From positions 2,373,733 to 2,437,732 of the forward strand of contig NZ_JALKFS010000005.1 of assembly GCF_023051145.1 (NCBI RefSeq): 64,000 nucleotides of DNA. Reading direction: 5' to 3'. This document shows positions 7,811 to 62,699 of this stretch, piece after piece; the stretch's first letter is position 1, and every line of letters starts with the position of its first letter. Source of the stretch: Williamsia sp. DF01-3. Its GTDB lineage: Bacteria > Actinomycetota > Actinomycetes > Mycobacteriales > Mycobacteriaceae. A model generated the notes under the pieces. It worked only from the letters and a program-made list of their open reading frames with translations, was not told the origin of the DNA and ran no database searches. The position numbers were made by a program, and so were the translations under genes.

Positions 7811-8962
7811 ATGAGCCGCGCTGAGATCAACGTTCCCGAGAGGCGACGTCGGCTGCCCCGCAGGTTCGTGTTGGCGGTTCTGGCCTCAGCTCTCGCCGTG
7901 GTCCTCGGTACCGCCGGATGTGGATCGTCAGACCGTGACTATCCAACGACGGACACTCCCCGTGTCGCCACGTCTGCCAGGGGATTGACCCTGGACGGAA
8001 AACCGTGGTGGCCCATCGGTTTCGCGGCCTATCAACTGGGTACCGATTGGCAACTCAACGAAGGTTGTGGCGCTCAGGTCGACCTGAACAAGTATTTCGC
8101 CGCGCTGCCCCCGAACGCGGTCACCCGGTTCAATCTCTTCTCGTCGTTCGCCAGGGACAAGGACACCGGTGAGATCGACTTCGGACGCCTGGACGAGATC
8201 TTCCAGGAGGCTGCCGACCACGACCAGATGCTCGTCGCGGTGCTCTCGGCGGGTGAGGGTGCCTGTGAGGACTTCGAATTCAAGGATCACTCGTGGTTCG
8301 CCGACCGCTGGGATGATCCCGCGACCGACGATTCGCTGATGACATATGCGTCCTGGCTGGATGCGGCGGTGGCCCGGTGGGGAAGCTCTCGCGCGCTCGC
8401 CGGGTGGGAATTGGTCGGGGAGGCCGAGCCGAGCAATTGCAACGACAGTCGGTGTTCGTGGCAGAACCGGATCTGTCCGCCTCGTTCGGCAGACGTGCTC
8501 CGGAAGTTCTTCGATGTCGCCGGTGCCCGGCTGCGTGCACTCGACCCGGACACTCCGATCTGGGCGGGGCTCGCAGGCGGCGGTCAGTGTGGTTCGCGCG
8601 GCGACGAGTACCAGTATGTCGCTGCATCGCCGGGGATCGACGTGCTCGACTATCACGACTACGGGCCGCGGGGTGAGCCGCTGCCGGGTACGGCGACCGA
8701 CGGACTGCAGCGACGGATCCAACAGGCCGGTCTGGTCGGCAAACCGCTGGTGGTTGCCGAGATGGGCCAGATGGCGGGGTCGTGTGGGCCGTTGCAGGGC
8801 CGCGCGGACGACTTGACGCGCAAGATCACCGCCCAACGGGCAGCGGGCACTGCCGGTGCACTGTTCTGGGCGTTTGTGCCCGACCCCCGGCTCGGCGAGT
8901 GCACGCTCGACATCGGCCCCGGGGATCCCATCTTTGCCGTCATCCGGGCGTTGAGTCCCTAG
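7811..8962 (+). CDS. Lipoprotein with GH5-like glycoside hydrolase fold
   Basis: A 383-residue secreted lipoprotein. A basic N-region and hydrophobic core run to a lipobox LGTAGC with the lipidated Cys at residue 37. The remainder looks like a clan-A (TIM barrel) hydrolase of the cellulase/mannanase kind: a WELVGEAE strand (acid/base candidate Glu204 or Glu206), DYHDYG about 280-285, and VVAEMG with candidate nucleophile Glu317. Many Cys residues suggest disulfides. It converges on the exopolysaccharide synthase operon, overlapping its last gene by four bases (8959-8962), so it may trim or release that polymer. Family assignment is moderately sure, substrate is inference. Confidence 0.72.
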   Translation: MSRAEINVPERRRRLPRRFVLAVLASALAVVLGTAGCGSSDRDYPTTDTPRVATSARGLTLDGKPWWPIGFAAYQLGTDWQLNEGCGAQVDLNKYFAALPPNAVTRFNLFSSFARDKDTGEIDFGRLDEIFQEAADHDQMLVAVLSAGEGACEDFEFKDHSWFADRWDDPATDDSLMTYASWLDAAVARWGSSRALAGWELVGEAEPSNCNDSRCSWQNRICPPRSADVLRKFFDVAGARLRALDPDTPIWAGLAGGGQCGSRGDEYQYVAASPGIDVLDYHDYGPRGEPLPGTATDGLQRRIQQAGLVGKPLVVAEMGQMAGSCGPLQGRADDLTRKITAQRAAGTAGALFWAFVPDPRLGECTLDIGPGDPIFAVIRALSP

Positions 8963-11900
8963 AGCGTTGGAGCTTCCTCAACCCGGTAGACCCGCCAATC
9001 GGGCTGATCCTCACCGTCATTGGGTACTTCGAGCTCCAGAGTCGCGATGTCGGCGCCGGTTTCGTACAACGTCGGATACCGCAGGTTCACCGCGTCGGAC
9101 TCGCCGCGACCGGTGTTGGGCACCGACAACAGGTATCGGACCTGATTTCTGCTGGGGTCGTTCAGGTAGGCGGTGAAATCCAGATCAGAGGGGACCACAA
9201 AGGTCTTGGGCTTTCGAGATGCGGCGACAACAGCGAATCCGTAGACGGTGTCGGTCAGCACCGAGCCCTCGGGCAGGTCGAGGCTGTCGAGATACTTCGC
9301 CAGCTCTCGTTCGGTGGAAAACGTCGACGCAATGCGGTGTTCGGTTGCCTTGCGTTCGCTGACGTTGTCCGGGTCCGGGTCGAGTACCGCACCCAGCGCG
9401 TACTCCTGCGGGGCATATTTGGGTTTGCTCATGCCGTACGCCGAGGCGGGCACGGTGATCGCCACCAAGACGACGGCCACTGCGAGTCCAGGCCAGGTGC
9501 GGGCAGTACCCACCCGGTGGCGAGCGGGCGAACGACGGGCCTCCGGTGGTTCCGGTGCGTATTTGCCCCGCCGTTTTGTGATCGTGCACGCGCGCGCAGG
9601 GACCAGCAGGATGGCGAGCGTGGCGGCCAACGGGATCGCGACGATGTAGAACCGCAGGAAGCCAAAGGTCGATCCACTGGCATAGCTGTACCCCTGGAAG
9701 CCCAGAACGCTACCGAACACCACGATCGGCACCAGCAGCGGAGCCCAGTCGCCACGCCACCATCCGGCGACTCCGGCAGCGAGGGCCAGCGGGATCAGCG
9801 TCGGTGCCAGGAGCACAGTGGAGACCACTGCGAACTCGACACCGGGCACGAAATCTGTTCCACCGCCGTCGGACTGCTGGAGAATCGCCGAGTTGCCGTA
9901 CTGGGAACTGAACTGTGCAAACGCCTGGCCCGTGATGAGCCAGCTGCTCGCAGCCCAGCCGATGAAGGCGAAAAAGCCCGGTGCGGCGACCAATCCACCG
10001 TCCAGCAGGGCTCGTCGCCATCGCAGCCGCGGCGAGGCGCGGATGGCCGTGGTCGCTGCGACGAGCAGCGAGGCACAGGCGATGGCGGCGACGGCGTCAT
10101 AGCGGGTGAGGTAGCCCAGCCCCAGCGAGATGCCGGCAGCCGCGAGGTGGTGTACGTCGTCGTCTGTGGTCCAGGCGATCAGCCGGCGCACCGCCCAGCA
10201 CACGAAGAACACAAACGGCGCCTCGCTCATACCGTTTGATCCGTAGAAGACGATCATCGGGTTGAACGCGAACAGTGCCGTGACGATCAAGGCGAACGAC
10301 CGCGGCAGTCCACGGTCCGCGGCAGTTGCGAAGATCTGTACCGCGGCACCGGACATGAAGGCCGCCGACATGAGCACCCCGGAGAAGGCTCGTTCGGTCA
10401 ACGGTGCCCACAGTGGGCTGAATGCCACTGCCGGCAACTGGATCAGCGAGGTCAGAGGCGTGAAGACGAAACCGATGGCCGCGACGTGCGGATCGCGACT
10501 GAACAGAACGGTTTGTGCCGCAGACACCCGGGACAGCGAGTCGCCGATGATGAATCCTTCACGCACGCACAGTACGTAGCCGACCACCACGTAGACGGCG
10601 AGACTCACGAAGTAGATGGTCCGGCCGAGTCCGCGATCAGACATTGCCGCCCGCCGCGTCGGGGGAACCTGGCTCGGTCCGTTCGTCGATGCGGCTGCCG
10701 CCGTATCTGATTGTCCGACACCGGAGTCGCTGTCCGGCTTCGCGGACAAACCGTGGAAGGTCTTCTCCCAGTACGAGGGATTGCGAATCAGCTGGTAACA
10801 CCCTTTTGCCGAGGCCACACTCATCATCACCCAGTAGAGCGGCACGGTGAGGGCAGGCAACAGCAGATCGGGACGATCGTCTTCGCGCAGCGCGATCAGG
10901 TTCATGTAGATGGTGGCGCCGTTGCCGAAGATCAGCGACACCAGCGCGGGGAAATAGATGTACCAGGGGAAGACTTCCCCGATGACCGCGGGCTGGCCGA
11001 GAAACCACGAGACGGTGATCAACCAGAAGACGAGATTGAGGCATGCGATGACGGGTGTACCGGCCAACAGCAGGGTGAACCGGATGAAACTCACGGTGCC
11101 GATCGCCCGCCACAGGCCCACCGGGCGCCGGACATGCACCAGCCAGGTCTGCAGATAGCCCTTGTACCACCGTGATCGCTGGCGGACCCAGTTGATGGGG
11201 TCGCTGTTGGCCTCTTCCAGAGTCACCGAATCGATCACGGCGGTGCGGTAGCCGGTCTCGGCGATGCGGACACCGAGGTCGGCGTCTTCGGTGACGTTGA
11301 ACGGATCCCACGCACCGATCTCGCGGAGTACCGAGCGTCGGAGATGATTGGACGTGCCGCCCAACGGGATCGGGGCTTTGCTGCGCATCAGGCCCGGCAA
11401 CAGGTATCCGAACCACAGTCCGTACTCGGCGGTGAACCACCCGGTGAGCATGTTCTGCCTGCCGTTGTGGAACGCGAGTTTGGCCTGGACGCACGCCACC
11501 GAATCGTCCTCTGAGGCAAAGGCTGCCACCACGCGCCGGAGCTGAAGGGGATCGGGCAGGTCCTCGGCGTCATAGATGGTGACGATCTCACCGGTTGCCA
11601 GGTGCAGACCGTAATTGCAGGCTTTCGGTTTGGTTCGGGGGTCGGCCGCCGGGACCAGCACGATGGTGATCATCTCGACGTCCTGACACCCCTCGGCCGC
11701 CGAGATCGTGACGTCGTCATCGGCCTCGAGCAACAACAGGACCTGCAACTTCTCCGACGGGTACTCGAGTGCGGCCATCGCGCCGATGAGATCGGCAACC
11801 ACCTCTGGTTCGTTGTAGGCGGGTACCAGGATGGTGTACAGCGGGAGGTCGGCGTCGGGGATGGCCCGGGCCCGTTCGTCGCTGATGTTGATCGGGCCCG

Positions 11901-12201
11901 ATGCCAGCCCTCGCCGGAACAGCAACAGCCTGTCGATCATCGACCAGACGTAACCGAGGGTGCAGACACCGATCAGGGCAGTTGCTGTCGGAATGGGTTG
12001 CCAGATGGCGAACCCGACAACCACCACGAGGAGCCCGATCAGGAAGTTCTTCTGCCATCCCAGAACTGCGATCGACGCCGATCTGAGCGGATCGGCCTCA
12101 CGGAGCCCCTCGATGGCATCGTGCAACGCCGCGGCCTTGAACTCCTCGCTCAGTTCACCGGGAACCGAGGGCCCCGTGGGGTGCTCCGGTGGTCCCGTCA
12201 T
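8959..12201 (-). CDS. GT2 polysaccharide synthase fused to a GT-C-like membrane domain
   Basis: A 1080-residue two-part membrane protein. Residues 1-490 form a processive family-2 glycosyltransferase of the BcsA/hyaluronan-synthase kind: two N-terminal membrane helices, VPAYNEP about 127, EADD at 159-162, DAED at 211-214, TEDAD at 304-308 and QRSRW at 341-345, then four or more helices. No PilZ domain follows. After a Ser/Pro-rich linker (about 495-520), residues 525-1080 form a second polytopic domain with an acidic residue (Asp554, IIGD) in its first outer loop and later helices like GT-C/ArnT-type transferases. The ATG overlaps the stop of the upstream gene (ATGA at 12198-12201), so translation is coupled. 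The polymer made is unknown. Confidence 0.85.
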   Translation of the reverse strand: MTGPPEHPTGPSVPGELSEEFKAAALHDAIEGLREADPLRSASIAVLGWQKNFLIGLLVVVVGFAIWQPIPTATALIGVCTLGYVWSMIDRLLLFRRGLASGPINISDERARAIPDADLPLYTILVPAYNEPEVVADLIGAMAALEYPSEKLQVLLLLEADDDVTISAAEGCQDVEMITIVLVPAADPRTKPKACNYGLHLATGEIVTIYDAEDLPDPLQLRRVVAAFASEDDSVACVQAKLAFHNGRQNMLTGWFTAEYGLWFGYLLPGLMRSKAPIPLGGTSNHLRRSVLREIGAWDPFNVTEDADLGVRIAETGYRTAVIDSVTLEEANSDPINWVRQRSRWYKGYLQTWLVHVRRPVGLWRAIGTVSFIRFTLLLAGTPVIACLNLVFWLITVSWFLGQPAVIGEVFPWYIYFPALVSLIFGNGATIYMNLIALREDDRPDLLLPALTVPLYWVMMSVASAKGCYQLIRNPSYWEKTFHGLSAKPDSDSGVGQSDTAAAASTNGPSQVPPTRRAAMSDRGLGRTIYFVSLAVYVVVGYVLCVREGFIIGDSLSRVSAAQTVLFSRDPHVAAIGFVFTPLTSLIQLPAVAFSPLWAPLTERAFSGVLMSAAFMSGAAVQIFATAADRGLPRSFALIVTALFAFNPMIVFYGSNGMSEAPFVFFVCWAVRRLIAWTTDDDVHHLAAAGISLGLGYLTRYDAVAAIACASLLVAATTAIRASPRLRWRRALLDGGLVAAPGFFAFIGWAASSWLITGQAFAQFSSQYGNSAILQQSDGGGTDFVPGVEFAVVSTVLLAPTLIPLALAAGVAGWWRGDWAPLLVPIVVFGSVLGFQGYSYASGSTFGFLRFYIVAIPLAATLAILLVPARACTITKRRGKYAPEPPEARRSPARHRVGTARTWPGLAVAVVLVAITVPASAYGMSKPKYAPQEYALGAVLDPDPDNVSERKATEHRIASTFSTERELAKYLDSLDLPEGSVLTDTVYGFAVVAASRKPKTFVVPSDLDFTAYLNDPSRNQVRYLLSVPNTGRGESDAVNLRYPTLYETGADIATLELEVPNDGEDQPDWRVYRVEEAPTL

Positions 12202-13691
12202 GCGGGTACCTGTTTCTTGAGCGGCGCGAGCTGCGCCTCGACCAGGTCTCTACCGAACTCGGTGAGCAGCCCCTCGTCCTTGAACACGGGGTCGTTGTTG
12301 GTCACCACGGAATTGCCGCGGAGCAGCACGGTGAAGACCGTGTTGAGGTTGCTGATCAGTGCGTTGGCCGGCTCGGGGAACGGTGCGTTCGCCTCGTGGT
12401 TGTCGACGGTCAACACGGTCACGCGCTGTGCGGCGCCGCCGTTTTCCCAGGTCCACGTGAGTTTGGTCCAGGTGACGAGCAGCTTGTCGTCGACCACCGC
12501 GTACATCCGCCCGATAATCCCGTTACCGAGGTTGACGTCACGTCCTGCACTGGAGCGGGTCTGCGACATGTCGTAGAGGACGTTGTCGGGGTAGATGGCG
12601 AACGAGATCGGTCGCCGGCTGGTGACGCTGTCGACCACCACCTCCCGCGGGCGGGACAGCTTGTCCCACTCGAAGTTCCCCTCTTCCGCGAGCATTCGTT
12701 GCCGGATGAGGACCGAGTTGGTGCCGAAGAACCTTTTGACCCAACGGTATTCGACTGTGCTCGTCGTCTGCCACTGCGGAGGGGAGATGAGCGGTGTACG
12801 GAACGCGAGGCCGTCCACCTGGCGTACCGGCGGGAGGTTGGGAACGGGAAGGGTGATGAAGGCCAGAAGGATTGCGATGACCGCGACCACCGGCACCGAT
12901 CGCCACACCTCGCCTGCGGTCAACGGATTGATCGACCGCTCGAGCGGGCGTTTCTGCTCTCCTCGCCGCGAGTAGAAGTAGAGACCGAGGCTGACCACCA
13001 CCGTCGCGGTCAGGGTGGGGGTCTGCTGATATACCATCATCGGCGCATTGGGGTAGAACTCGATGAGTACCAGCAGGATTGCGCCACCGACCGCAAACGT
13101 CAACGCCGCGCCGGTCACCGCGCGCCGCCAGGTGCGTCCGACGGCGATGGCGGTCGCGAACGCAGCGAGTCCGAGAGCGACCAGCCCCGCGATCTGACGG
13201 CCGCCCCCAAGTGTGATCACCATGATCCGATAGGGCAGCGGGAACATCAAGAGCAGCAGGAGCCAGACCCACGCGAACCGGGTGACAGGCCGAAGACCGA
13301 ACAGCATGATGCTGGCGCTGATGAGGAAGATCCACATCGCGAGCAGATCGAGATGGAGAAGGCTGAAGTCGTCCGAGTATCGGCGCAGCAGAACGCCTTT
13401 GATGAGCAATGCCAGTACCAGGCCCATGAAACCGACGATCACGTCCGTCTGCCGGTCGTGGATCGGCAACTCGCCCGTGCGTCGCCGAGCCACGCCTTGT
13501 GCCGCCAGCAACGCCAGCCACGGGACCGAGAAGACGTAGCCGATCAAACTACCCGAGTACGCCTCTTCCGAGATGTTGAGCCACGTCGAGTAGAAGGCGA
13601 TGAACGTCGCGGCGAGGATGATGGCCCATCGCAGCGCGATTCGCGACGCGGGGTGCCACCGCGAGAAGATCGATCCGGACGACGCCGCCAC
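12198..13691 (-). CDS. Exosortase/EpsI-like membrane protein lacking cysteine
   Basis: A 497-residue protein whose first about 270 residues hold about eight membrane helices with spacing and short motifs that recall exosortases (a YSGSLIGYVFSVP segment, then LLLLLMFPLPYRI). The last about 220 residues are mostly soluble and resemble the EpsI-type domain that accompanies or is fused to exosortases. The catalytic Cys of exosortases is absent: there is no cysteine anywhere in the protein. It starts with GTG at 13691, three bases after the BcsB-like stop, and its stop overlaps the GT2 start, so it is part of that synthase operon. A role in polymer export or assembly is inferred; the family call is tentative. 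Confidence 0.5.
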   Translation of the reverse strand: MAASSGSIFSRWHPASRIALRWAIILAATFIAFYSTWLNISEEAYSGSLIGYVFSVPWLALLAAQGVARRRTGELPIHDRQTDVIVGFMGLVLALLIKGVLLRRYSDDFSLLHLDLLAMWIFLISASIMLFGLRPVTRFAWVWLLLLLMFPLPYRIMVITLGGGRQIAGLVALGLAAFATAIAVGRTWRRAVTGAALTFAVGGAILLVLIEFYPNAPMMVYQQTPTLTATVVVSLGLYFYSRRGEQKRPLERSINPLTAGEVWRSVPVVAVIAILLAFITLPVPNLPPVRQVDGLAFRTPLISPPQWQTTSTVEYRWVKRFFGTNSVLIRQRMLAEEGNFEWDKLSRPREVVVDSVTSRRPISFAIYPDNVLYDMSQTRSSAGRDVNLGNGIIGRMYAVVDDKLLVTWTKLTWTWENGGAAQRVTVLTVDNHEANAPFPEPANALISNLNTVFTVLLRGNSVVTNNDPVFKDEGLLTEFGRDLVEAQLAPLKKQVPA

Positions 13692-13694
13692 GGA

Positions 13695-15665
13695 TCAGCT
13701 TCCCGGTTCGCGCCGACGACTGCGGATCACGATGATGGCGACAGCTATCGCGATGGCCACGAGAACACCCGCCCCGATCCACCGGATCAGTGAGCGGTTG
13801 TCTTCGGAGTCGGAGGTGTCCGACGTGGAGCCGATGTCGACGGTGAGCGCCACGGGGTCGCGATCCGGAACTGCCACAAGGGCATTGCCATTGAGTCGGA
13901 CCCAGCGATCCCGGTCTGCGCCCAGCCATCCCAGCAACGCATCGAGCTGTCCAGGCGCACCCGTGGAGGTGGCCACCATGACCGTCCGCCCACCGTCGAC
14001 CACGGTTTGCAAGGACCCGAAGTTCACCGCCGGGTCGAGGGTGAGGGTCGTCTCGTCGCCGTTTCCGTCGACCCCGGCGAAATCGATGGGGTTGTTGCCG
14101 GACTTGCTGACCGGCAGGTCGATGGTGGGATCGTCCCAGTTGTCGGCGGAGATCAGGATGGCCGGGAGCTTCGAGGTTGTCGCGGTCTCGAGCGGTACCA
14201 CATTTGTTCCCAGCGGTACCGCGCTGAGTCGCTGAACACCCTCGATGATGGACACGGCACGGGCGGTGTCGGCGAAAGACCCGACTGTCAGACCGATTTG
14301 GAGTTCGGGCATCAACGCCTGCGGCACCGACTGGAATCCAGGCGGCACCGGCGGTGTGGCCGGAGTGCTCTGAACCGGGCTGTCGCCACTGACGTCGAGC
14401 GTGATGGGACTGGCCTCACCACATGCCCCGGTGTCACCGGCGGCGTCCACGGCCACGTTGAGGTCGGTGAAACGCTGGAGTAGCCGGTTGGGAATGGTGA
14501 CCATCTCGTCGATGGTTCCGCTGGGTTCGGCGGCCCACCGGGTGATGACCTCATCACCGACCGAGACCACCACCTGACCGCCGTAGTTCGGCGGAAGCGG
14601 CGTGTACGACCCCTTGAGGTTGACCTTGATGTCGCCGGTCGGCCGGCCGAGGCGTGTCTGATCGAGGCCGATCGACACCTTGGGATCGGTGAGGGCGGTC
14701 GCGCTGGCGCCCGGCTCGCCGAGCTCTCGCAGCGTGGTCGCGTCGGGCGGGAGTTGCGGGCTGACGCGCAACGGTCCTGCCACTGCTTTCGAACTGACGG
14801 CCAGTCGCGACATGTCGCTGGTCAGCAGCCGCGTCTGATTAGTCAGGTCTGTGGCCGGTCCGCTGATCAGCAGCGCCGGCACTCCCACGGTCCCGAGGAG
14901 CGTCACCGCGCTGTCGGGGCGCTCGATGACGGATACGTGCCTCTCGAGCGCCGTGGATGGCGTGGGCGGCGTGGGCTGGCCTTCCGGAAGTGTCTGCATC
15001 ACAACGTCGACAGGTTGCTCACCGTAATATCCGACCACGGCCGATGCCAGCGCGACGGCCGAATTGGATTCGGCCTGCGTCGGTGTTGCCGGGATCGCGA
15101 TCGTCAGTCGCTGGAGAATCGGCGGCAGGAAGTCGGCGACGACGGTGGGCGCAACCTCGGTTCCGGCAAAGACCACGGACGGCGTGAGAAGCGTGAGTTG
15201 GTCGGTCTCATCGAACACGCAGAAACCCGCCGGTGGCACAACAAAACTGCGAATGGTGACGATGACCGCGTTGTCGATGACCTCGGCGCCGCGCAATCCG
15301 ATCGTGACCGGCGTCCGGTCGGCTGACGGCACATCGACGGACGACAGTATCTCGCCGTCTTGGACGACGGTCAGGGTGGCGCTCTGCGCATTCGGCGGCA
15401 ACTGAACCGTGGCTCGGATGTCGGTCGGCGTCAGCCCTTCGGGTACGGGAATTGTCACCGTTGTCGAAGCTTGCTGGCCGGGAAAGGCGAGATTCTCTCC
15501 TGCGCCCAGTGAATCGAGGCTCAGGGTGGGGGCCGCCGACACAATGCCGCCGTCGCCTGGTGCCGCGCCGGCGTGCGGCGCAACAAGAATGGCTGGGGCT
15601 GCTGTGAATATCGCCGTAGTGATCGCGGCGAACAGGCGAAGTAATCGAGAGTGTGCCGTTGTCAT
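13695..15665 (-). CDS. BcsB-like periplasmic polysaccharide synthase subunit
   Basis: A 656-residue exported protein resembling BcsB, the bacterial cellulose synthase subunit that guides polymer after it leaves the membrane. It has a signal peptide to about residue 37 (AGAAP), two repeated beta-rich halves (the jelly-roll plus flavodoxin-like pairs of BcsB), and a C-terminal membrane helix followed by RSRRREPGS. The start is taken at the ATG 15665 (MTTAHSRLLR); in-frame ATG 15683 and TTG 15686 add six or seven residues before the signal peptide. It is first in the operon with the two downstream membrane proteins. A family match is likely, cellulose as product is not shown. Confidence 0.75.
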   Translation of the reverse strand: MTTAHSRLLRLFAAITTAIFTAAPAILVAPHAGAAPGDGGIVSAAPTLSLDSLGAGENLAFPGQQASTTVTIPVPEGLTPTDIRATVQLPPNAQSATLTVVQDGEILSSVDVPSADRTPVTIGLRGAEVIDNAVIVTIRSFVVPPAGFCVFDETDQLTLLTPSVVFAGTEVAPTVVADFLPPILQRLTIAIPATPTQAESNSAVALASAVVGYYGEQPVDVVMQTLPEGQPTPPTPSTALERHVSVIERPDSAVTLLGTVGVPALLISGPATDLTNQTRLLTSDMSRLAVSSKAVAGPLRVSPQLPPDATTLRELGEPGASATALTDPKVSIGLDQTRLGRPTGDIKVNLKGSYTPLPPNYGGQVVVSVGDEVITRWAAEPSGTIDEMVTIPNRLLQRFTDLNVAVDAAGDTGACGEASPITLDVSGDSPVQSTPATPPVPPGFQSVPQALMPELQIGLTVGSFADTARAVSIIEGVQRLSAVPLGTNVVPLETATTSKLPAILISADNWDDPTIDLPVSKSGNNPIDFAGVDGNGDETTLTLDPAVNFGSLQTVVDGGRTVMVATSTGAPGQLDALLGWLGADRDRWVRLNGNALVAVPDRDPVALTVDIGSTSDTSDSEDNRSLIRWIGAGVLVAIAIAVAIIVIRSRRREPGS

Positions 15666-15782
15666 CACGGCAATACTAAGCATCAATCACTATCTGGCTC
15701 CGGATGAACGCGCTTTTTCTTTTACCGTGCCTGGATACGCCCAGGTGACGTGCGAAGACCGTTGCTTTTCGGCGCGCCAGGA

Positions 15783-62591: not shown

Positions 62592-62699
62592 ACGTCGTGT
62601 GAACGGGAAATCCGGTGCAAATCCGGAGCGGTCGCGCCACTGTGAGCTGATCTCAACCCACCGGGTGGAGCCGCAAGTCAGGGGACCGGGGCACGACAC
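62592..62699 (+). ncRNA. Cobalamin riboswitch upstream of cbtB
   Basis: Conserved cobalamin-aptamer pieces in order: CCGGTGCAAATCCGGAGC, GGTCGCGCCACTGT, and the B12 box GCCGCAAGTCAGGGGACC (62670-62687). GTCGTG near 62595 and CACGAC at 62692-62697 can pair to close the element. It ends about 45 bases before cbtB and would switch off cobalt uptake when adenosyl- or hydroxocobalamin is plentiful. Boundaries are approximate. Confidence 0.93.

Follow-up and report, generated by a model that had tools for sequence, protein, structure and literature searches.

A 64,000-nucleotide stretch of Williamsia sp. DF01-3 (contig NZ_JALKFS010000005.1, positions 2,373,733 to 2,437,732; the window) carries a locus encoding a BcsB-like extracytoplasmic protein, an exosortase-like polytopic membrane protein (XRT), a GT2 synthase, a GT-C (PMT_2/GT39-like) part and a GH5-like lipoprotein glycoside hydrolase (Table 1). 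The locus is real and conserved, and we consider that, with a probability of about 0.72, its genes specify a synthase-dependent machine for an exopolysaccharide, apparently uncharacterised, that represents a variant of the type known from BcsA/BcsB and Listeria Pss. A first-pass annotation of the same DNA had proposed a machine for a secreted glycan; this is still the best reading, since the set is conserved and the BcsB match holds, without the fused glycosyltransferase and the active exosortase that were part of it. The unusual feature is the exosortase-like protein tied to GT2, not the fusion.

Conservation and gene order

A first survey with the BcsB-like protein covered 61 genomes, its own included, and found matches in 24 of these; all 24 genomes sampled from the order's other families were negative (Mycobacteriales, where NCBI places the genus Williamsia). 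A profile of 21 rows matched 117 of 251 genomes of the window's family, representing 22 of 31 genera, and 4 of 198 genomes across the phylum, all four belonging to the same family. This restriction to one family in our samples would suit glycosyltransferases that make no free exopolysaccharide but construct or alter a glycan of the mycolata envelope, either in the cell wall or lipid-linked (a side chain of arabinogalactan or lipoglycan), and a GT-C enzyme is typical of users of decaprenyl-phosphate sugars. However, 134 of the 251 family genomes have no BcsB-like match, so the locus is not part of the essential envelope, and the processive-type motifs of GT2, together with its BcsB partner, suggest that the polymer leaves the cell during its synthesis; we regard an envelope glycan as very unlikely.

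The neighbourhoods of the BcsB-like gene were scored with hidden Markov models built from the first set of fetched loci. The 116 neighbourhoods include the window and the loci L028 and L029, L027 being excluded as a duplicate of L030; all were chosen for their BcsB-like match and genomes without one lay outside the systematic search for the other genes, so that the counts tell how often the other genes accompany the BcsB-like gene. Ten of the 117 matching family genomes fall outside these counts (six match only weakly and at the C-terminus, one match is partial, two are fragmented and one lies at a contig end), as do at least three sites of second copies. BcsB-like protein, XRT, GT2 and GT-C occur together in 98 of the 116 neighbourhoods, in 91 of 107 genomes and in 20 of 21 genera, so that the scattering in relatives which the first-pass annotation had named as a refutation was not seen, and the GH5-like hydrolase is additionally present in 80 of the 98 full sets. 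Because it is conserved in 20 genera, the gene set is more than a chance assembly. Six neighbourhoods are partial, some of them clipped at contig ends. One genus (g29) has the full set in 4 of 13 genomes, always without the hydrolase. Of the 12 BcsB-like genes that occur alone in the survey, 10 come from this genus; one of the 12 (L141) lies close to a contig end. Clustering of the neighbouring frames revealed no further constant partner, none of the 14 largest clusters occurring in more than 15 loci.

The order BcsB-like, XRT, GT2, GT-C on one strand is found in 78 of the 98 full loci. The remaining 20 are rearranged: eight have XRT, GT2, BcsB-like and GT-C in this order on one strand, seven have XRT-GT2 diverging from BcsB-like-GT-C, and in five the same two pairs converge. 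With all other genes disregarded, XRT and GT2 lie side by side on one strand in each of the 98 loci, no more than 60 bases separating their open segments, and the BcsB-like gene adjoins GT-C in all 20 rearranged loci. The order seen in eight loci consists of diverged copies of all four genes, in which XRT scores 80-95 bits; among the other loci, the six listed have XRT scores of about 560-750. Pairwise distance matrices of the genes correlate (68 loci; r 0.73-0.93, uncorrected for species history; none of 200 permutations reached any of these values), most strongly for XRT-GT2 (0.93) and BcsB-like-GT-C (0.92). Gene order and distances together suggest two modules, XRT-GT2 and BcsB-like-GT-C, and the constant XRT-GT2 pairing offers a clear, testable structural prediction.

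Some individual loci deviate. L028 (NZ_JNYV01000003.1), titled Kitasatospora arboriphila, has the same five genes and a BcsB-like protein 92% identical to that of the window; its title is probably a mislabel or reflects contamination, because the genome that matched is classified in the same genus as the window. In L036 (7845-13956) a BcsB-like gene occurs with none of the partners; after it come a sulfatase gene, a gene that weakly matches Lpp-LpqN and one for a sulfatase-modifying protein (FGE), a setting in which a different use of the BcsB-like protein is possible. A diverged BcsB-like gene (28% identity) adjoins Wzz/tyrosine-kinase-like and Wzy_C genes in L051 (4841-9974). The set of L050 (6460-9395) is decayed: the frames of its BcsB-like and XRT fragments are disturbed, and little is left of GT2. 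In L033 (2099-3242) the GH5-like gene is broken into two overlapping frames.

The BcsB-like protein and XRT

The BcsB-like protein has an N-terminal hydrophobic segment and ends in a C-terminal transmembrane helix and a basic tail, and the long region between them contains two less marked hydrophobic stretches; the hydropathy script and the alignment agree on an extracytoplasmic topology with a C-terminal transmembrane anchor. Its nearest named relatives, from Williamsia muralis, are 93-94% identical. The open frame extends to a TTG at 15686, and the relatives agree better with a start at ATG 15665 or GTG 15668. BcsB itself is built of jelly-roll and flavodoxin-like domains, and most work on BcsB-dependent export concerns Gram-negatives. 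In an hhalign comparison, 115 BcsB-like sequences matched nine BcsB proteins with 97.9% (E 5e-13) over 553 columns, while three control pairs involving the BcsB or the BcsB-like set gave 0.1-0.4%, and 13 of the 21 aligned sequences, though not that of the window, matched the Pfam family PF03170 at E up to 1 (best 3.8e-5). Kinship with BcsB, for which the first-pass annotation had named loss of the match in profile searches as a refutation, is thus supported at the profile level, and the export part reads as a distant cousin of the bacterial cellulose export part. A plasmid BLAST search with the protein returned no match, and a search of PDB with the window protein alone gave a single chance-level match (E 0.4).

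XRT combines an exosortase-like N-terminal part with a conserved C-terminal domain of about 200 residues. The exosortase family PF09721 matches residues 22-157 only of the window protein (E 0.0048) and appears in 2 of 17 alignment members, the window counted (best 2.4e-7); hhalign aligned XRT with exosortases at 70.7%, again only over columns 7-147, compared with 0.1-1.9% for GT2 and GT-C controls. The values fell to 6.5% against a fused XrtA/XrtD set and to 0.4% against an actinobacterial set, and XRT against GT-C, an unrelated membrane pair, gave 5.8%. The label of an exosortase/EpsI-like protein is therefore kept in its first half, by a weak N-terminal match, and hardly in its second: DUF3485, the EpsI-like C-terminal domain, was found in 1 of 17 members (E 0.036) and by hhalign at 0.2%. 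Among the 17 members the best NCBIfam exosortase match had E 2.6e-4, and the window protein reached 13 bits with a cut-off of 400. A PDB search with the XRT alignment found no match, and the XRT profile matched 5 of 296 phylum genomes, four of them in the window's family and one, weakly (E 6.5e-4), outside it.

These matches could be taken to mean that the locus is an exosortase system, in which the BcsB-like protein would carry a sorting signal at its C-terminal transmembrane helix and basic tail, and XRT would cleave this signal and hand the protein to a glycan built by the glycosyltransferases, comparable by name to the XrtG systems of Firmicutes. The Lactiplantibacillus plantarum XrtG set, as far as the accessible text describes it, comprises a CTERM protein, an exosortase and two glycosyltransferases; the XrtG- and XrtP-associated models give the window GT2 weak scores (E 1.5e-8 and 3.4e-7), and the BcsB-like tail has a weak GG_III-CTERM match (E 0.17). 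However, no cysteine column reaches 50% of 83 XRT sequences, and only 3 of the 83 have an exosortase-like Cys motif, compared with 12 of 13 true exosortases, though some cysteine occurs within the first 260 residues in 69 of the 83. PF09721 scores 16.8 bits in the window (cut-off 25.7), the XrtG and XrtP glycosyltransferase models score 34 and 29 bits (cut-offs 364 and 520), and no invariant sorting motif is evident in the alignment of the BcsB-like tail. Without a conserved catalytic cysteine protein sorting is unlikely; the active exosortase of the first-pass annotation is not borne out, and we consider an exosortase system highly improbable. XRT is instead probably a catalytically dead exosortase-fold protein and an obligate partner of GT2, with a role that would be non-catalytic.

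Synthase, hydrolase and comparison with known systems

The GT2 part of the window carries the motifs DAED, TED and QRSRW, and all 100 GT2 sequences have the processive-type motifs DAED, TED and Q[QR]xRW. Neither a PilZ nor an MshEN domain was found in the window GT2 by Pfam and NCBIfam scans. Close relatives among plasmid sequences were GT2s from Nonomuraea, a Hyphomicrobiales bacterium, Frigoribacterium and Geobacillus (about 40-46% identity), with Mycobacterium riyadhense at 36%; the comparison with PgaC was made through model TIGR03937 only, and NfrB was ruled out as a close relative (23% identity over 307 residues). The GT-C part exceeds the curated score of a Pfam family (PF13231, 28.2 bits, cut-off 26.1). 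When six outside GT2 loci were scored with the locus models, Nonomuraea alone had a GT-C match (E 4.6e-22), and no XRT or hydrolase match was found in any of the six. In the Nonomuraea locus (L222, 4356-8182) a GT-C-matching protein of 789 residues adjoins a GT2 of the same subfamily, with no BcsB-like or XRT match nearby. The GT2 relatives of Geobacillus (L218, 6563-8452) and of the Hyphomicrobiales bacterium (L220, 6584-8467) carry an N-terminal MshE-type cyclic di-GMP domain.

Cellulose synthase is the obvious comparison, and GT2 might use UDP-glucose so that the set makes cellulose or another beta-glucan in some mycobacteria and their relatives. Besides the BcsB kinship, the best NCBIfam model of GT2 is CelA (TIGR03030, E 1.1e-19), and Mycobacterium neoaurum and M. 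cosmeticum carry putative cellulose synthase components according to the accessible part of a review (PMC6364259); these components may belong to the same family as the window set. The same part of that review states that M. tuberculosis seems to lack BcsA and BcsB genes and that its cellulose pathway still awaits identification; the available text of PMC12167362 calls the machinery for cellulose in mycobacteria currently unknown. Elsewhere, as the accessible passages have it, a bcsB gene is named in Nocardia testacea CS1 (PMC13400229), and a Gram-positive GT2 is described whose cluster has no BcsB gene (PMC10374906). A GalU-like nucleotidyltransferase gene (a label that we presume from its sequence) lies in the fetched stretch of 9 loci (representative L166, 3583-4503) and would fit UDP-glucose, which counts against mannose. 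On the other side, GT2 is 27.5% identical to Escherichia coli BcsA over 240 residues but 37-46% identical to four GT2s of Actinomycetota and Firmicutes, its CelA score is 69.9 bits where the cut-off is 699.1, it has no PilZ domain, and the hydrolase is closest to mannanases in PDB, although its Pfam name is Cellulase (PF00150, in 4 of 16 hydrolase members). We judge cellulose or another beta-glucan to be an unlikely product.

The best PDB match of the hydrolase profile is 4awe (E 7e-13), and 13 of the 15 PDB sequences found at E up to 0.1 are named mannanase or beta-mannosidase. The presumed catalytic glutamates E204 and E317 are kept in 80 of 80 sequences. GH5 enzymes usually carry an asparagine before the acid/base glutamate; a glycine stands there in 79 of 80. 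A lipobox pattern occurs in 11 of 17 members. The hydrolase thus resembles beta-mannanases in sequence, a resemblance that is no proof of its substrate. Because of this match and of a ManC-like gene in the Geobacillus set described below, we lean tentatively, at somewhat less than even odds, towards a polymer that contains mannose.

The set resembles BcsA-BcsB(-BcsZ) in having a GT2 with D, D, TED and QxxRW-type motifs, a BcsB homologue and a hydrolase beside the operon. It differs in the low identity of its GT2 to BcsA, in the missing PilZ domain and in the extra XRT and GT-C, and its hydrolase is GH5-like whereas BcsZ is of the GH8 kind. In the Actinomycetota, Streptomyces CslA-GlxA includes a GT2 synthase for a secreted beta-glycan, a likeness to the window GT2 that is one of description, not of sequence, and was drawn with no model search for a GlxA-like gene. 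The N-terminal membrane part of XRT aligns with exosortases, and in the exosortase (EpsH/XrtA/XrtD) and XrtG systems, too, an exosortase-like protein and glycosyltransferases occur in one set, but the Cys motif is absent in 80 of 83 XRT sequences and the C-terminal part of XRT does not align. Also similar by description, though not compared by sequence, is the Gram-positive exopolysaccharide operon pssA-E of Listeria, which according to the available text of PMC4125290 encodes a GT2 (PssC) with a BcsB orthologue (PssD); PssZ, placed in GH126, is described elsewhere as a glycosidase specific for the exopolysaccharide. Listeria has in PssE a cyclic di-GMP receptor, whereas Pfam and NCBIfam scans found no cyclic di-GMP domain in the window proteins.

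A set on plasmid pEF60063-1 of Geobacillus stearothermophilus (L218), which came up only via its GT2 and a locus hidden Markov model, has in order a ManC-like gene (mannose-1-phosphate guanylyltransferase-like, TIGR01479 at E 2e-71, below the model cut-off), an annotated BcsB, a GT2 of the same subfamily and a GT39; we know of no characterisation of it. Its BcsB matches the BcsB-like model at E 5e-25 (positions 10-586 of 643) and PF03170 above its cut-off (2e-11), and its GT2, which differs by the cyclic di-GMP domain mentioned above, matches the locus GT2 model at 2.7e-162. The distance from known systems that the first-pass annotation had stressed is not supported: BcsB with GT2 already occurs in Listeria pss, and BcsB, GT2 and GT39 together on the Geobacillus plasmid. 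In the literature searched, mainly open access, we found no experimental study of the gene set and none that links BcsB or XrtP with an exosortase; the accessible text of a paper on biofilm operons (PMC7112194) does not mention the set.

Several results weigh against an exopolysaccharide machine of this kind. Twelve of the 116 neighbourhoods have a solitary BcsB-like gene, and shared descent of the hosts accounts for part of the distance correlations. The window BcsB-like protein has no Pfam match at E up to 1 and stays below the curated score of PF03170; a search of 296 phylum genomes with that family (E 1e-3) matched none, a search of its own genome gave no match either, and the BcsB-like profile matched no PDB chain. 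Among the six outside GT2 loci a BcsB-like match was found only in Geobacillus, and there true BcsB proteins compared with the Geobacillus protein alone gave 12.3% by hhalign, so that this protein bridges the two groups by the locus model and Pfam, not by the test against true BcsB. The Geobacillus GT39 falls just under the PMT_2 cut-off (25.2 bits, cut-off 26.1) and does not match the locus GT-C (0.6%), and the locus models find neither XRT nor GH5 in that set.

In the exopolysaccharide machine as we envisage it, GT2, paired with XRT, would build the polymer from a nucleotide sugar on the cytoplasmic side and pass the chain across the membrane, where the BcsB-like protein on the outer face would guide it out. 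GT-C, working with the BcsB-like protein, may attach side groups outside from a polyprenyl-phosphate sugar, and the GH5-like lipoprotein may cut or edit the product, as BcsZ and PssZ do elsewhere. We infer the direction of transport, the formation of a complex, the addition of side chains and the sugar. A fuller version, possible but doubtful when taken as a whole, would have a Cys-less exosortase fold as an obligate subunit of the synthase, a GT2-XRT pair that makes and passes the chain, a BcsB-like-GT-C pair that guides and decorates it, and as product an undescribed, branched, probably mannose-containing surface polymer of mycolic-acid bacteria. For these bacteria the BcsB-like version found across 20 genera of the family provides concrete genes with which to seek extracellular polymers.

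Locus layout and the GT2/GT-C reading frame

The four reading frames of the first-pass annotation are all present with the spacing that it had reported: three bases separate the BcsB-like stop (13695) from the XRT start (13691), an ATGA overlap joins XRT and GT2 at 12198-12201, and the hydrolase gene converges on the others with a 4-base overlap.

Table 1. Features of the locus, in positions of the window
Feature	Position	Strand	Remarks
BcsB-like extracytoplasmic protein	13695..15665	-	656 residues from ATG 15665
XRT, exosortase-like polytopic membrane protein	12198..13691	-	497 residues, 8 hydrophobic segments (Kyte-Doolittle script)
GT2 synthase part (residues 1-513)	10663..12201	-	GT2 domain, hydrophobic segments flanking both sides
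GT2/GT-C boundary	10655..10670	-	one-base difference from three close relatives
GT-C (PMT_2/GT39-like) part	8959..10644	-	polytopic
GH5-like lipoprotein glycoside hydrolase	7811..8962	+	convergent to the other genes
CTAG common to two convergent stop codons	8959..8962	.	4-base overlap

GT2 and GT-C form a single frame of 1080 residues in the window (8959-12201, minus strand), so that the fusion described by the first-pass annotation does exist as an open frame, but it is peculiar to this genome: of the 101 neighbourhoods that have both domains, the other 100 do not have them in a shared frame. In L027 (from the same genome as L030), L028 and L029 the GT2 stop overlaps the GT-C start, and the window differs from them by one base and reads through. 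With the fusion restricted to one genome and arising from a one-base difference, its reading as a designed part of the machine is not supported; it may stem from a sequencing error or from a true mutation. Over 62 kilobases compared, 35 insertions or deletions of a length not divisible by three separate the window from both close relatives, and many of these seem intergenic when read by eye against frames of at least 300 residues, not sorted by gene.

A PADLOC search at E 1e-3 gave no match, and at gathering scores Rfam had no match near the operon. The sole Rfam match in the window at these scores is a cobalamin riboswitch (RF00174, 43.8 bits) at 62606-62687.

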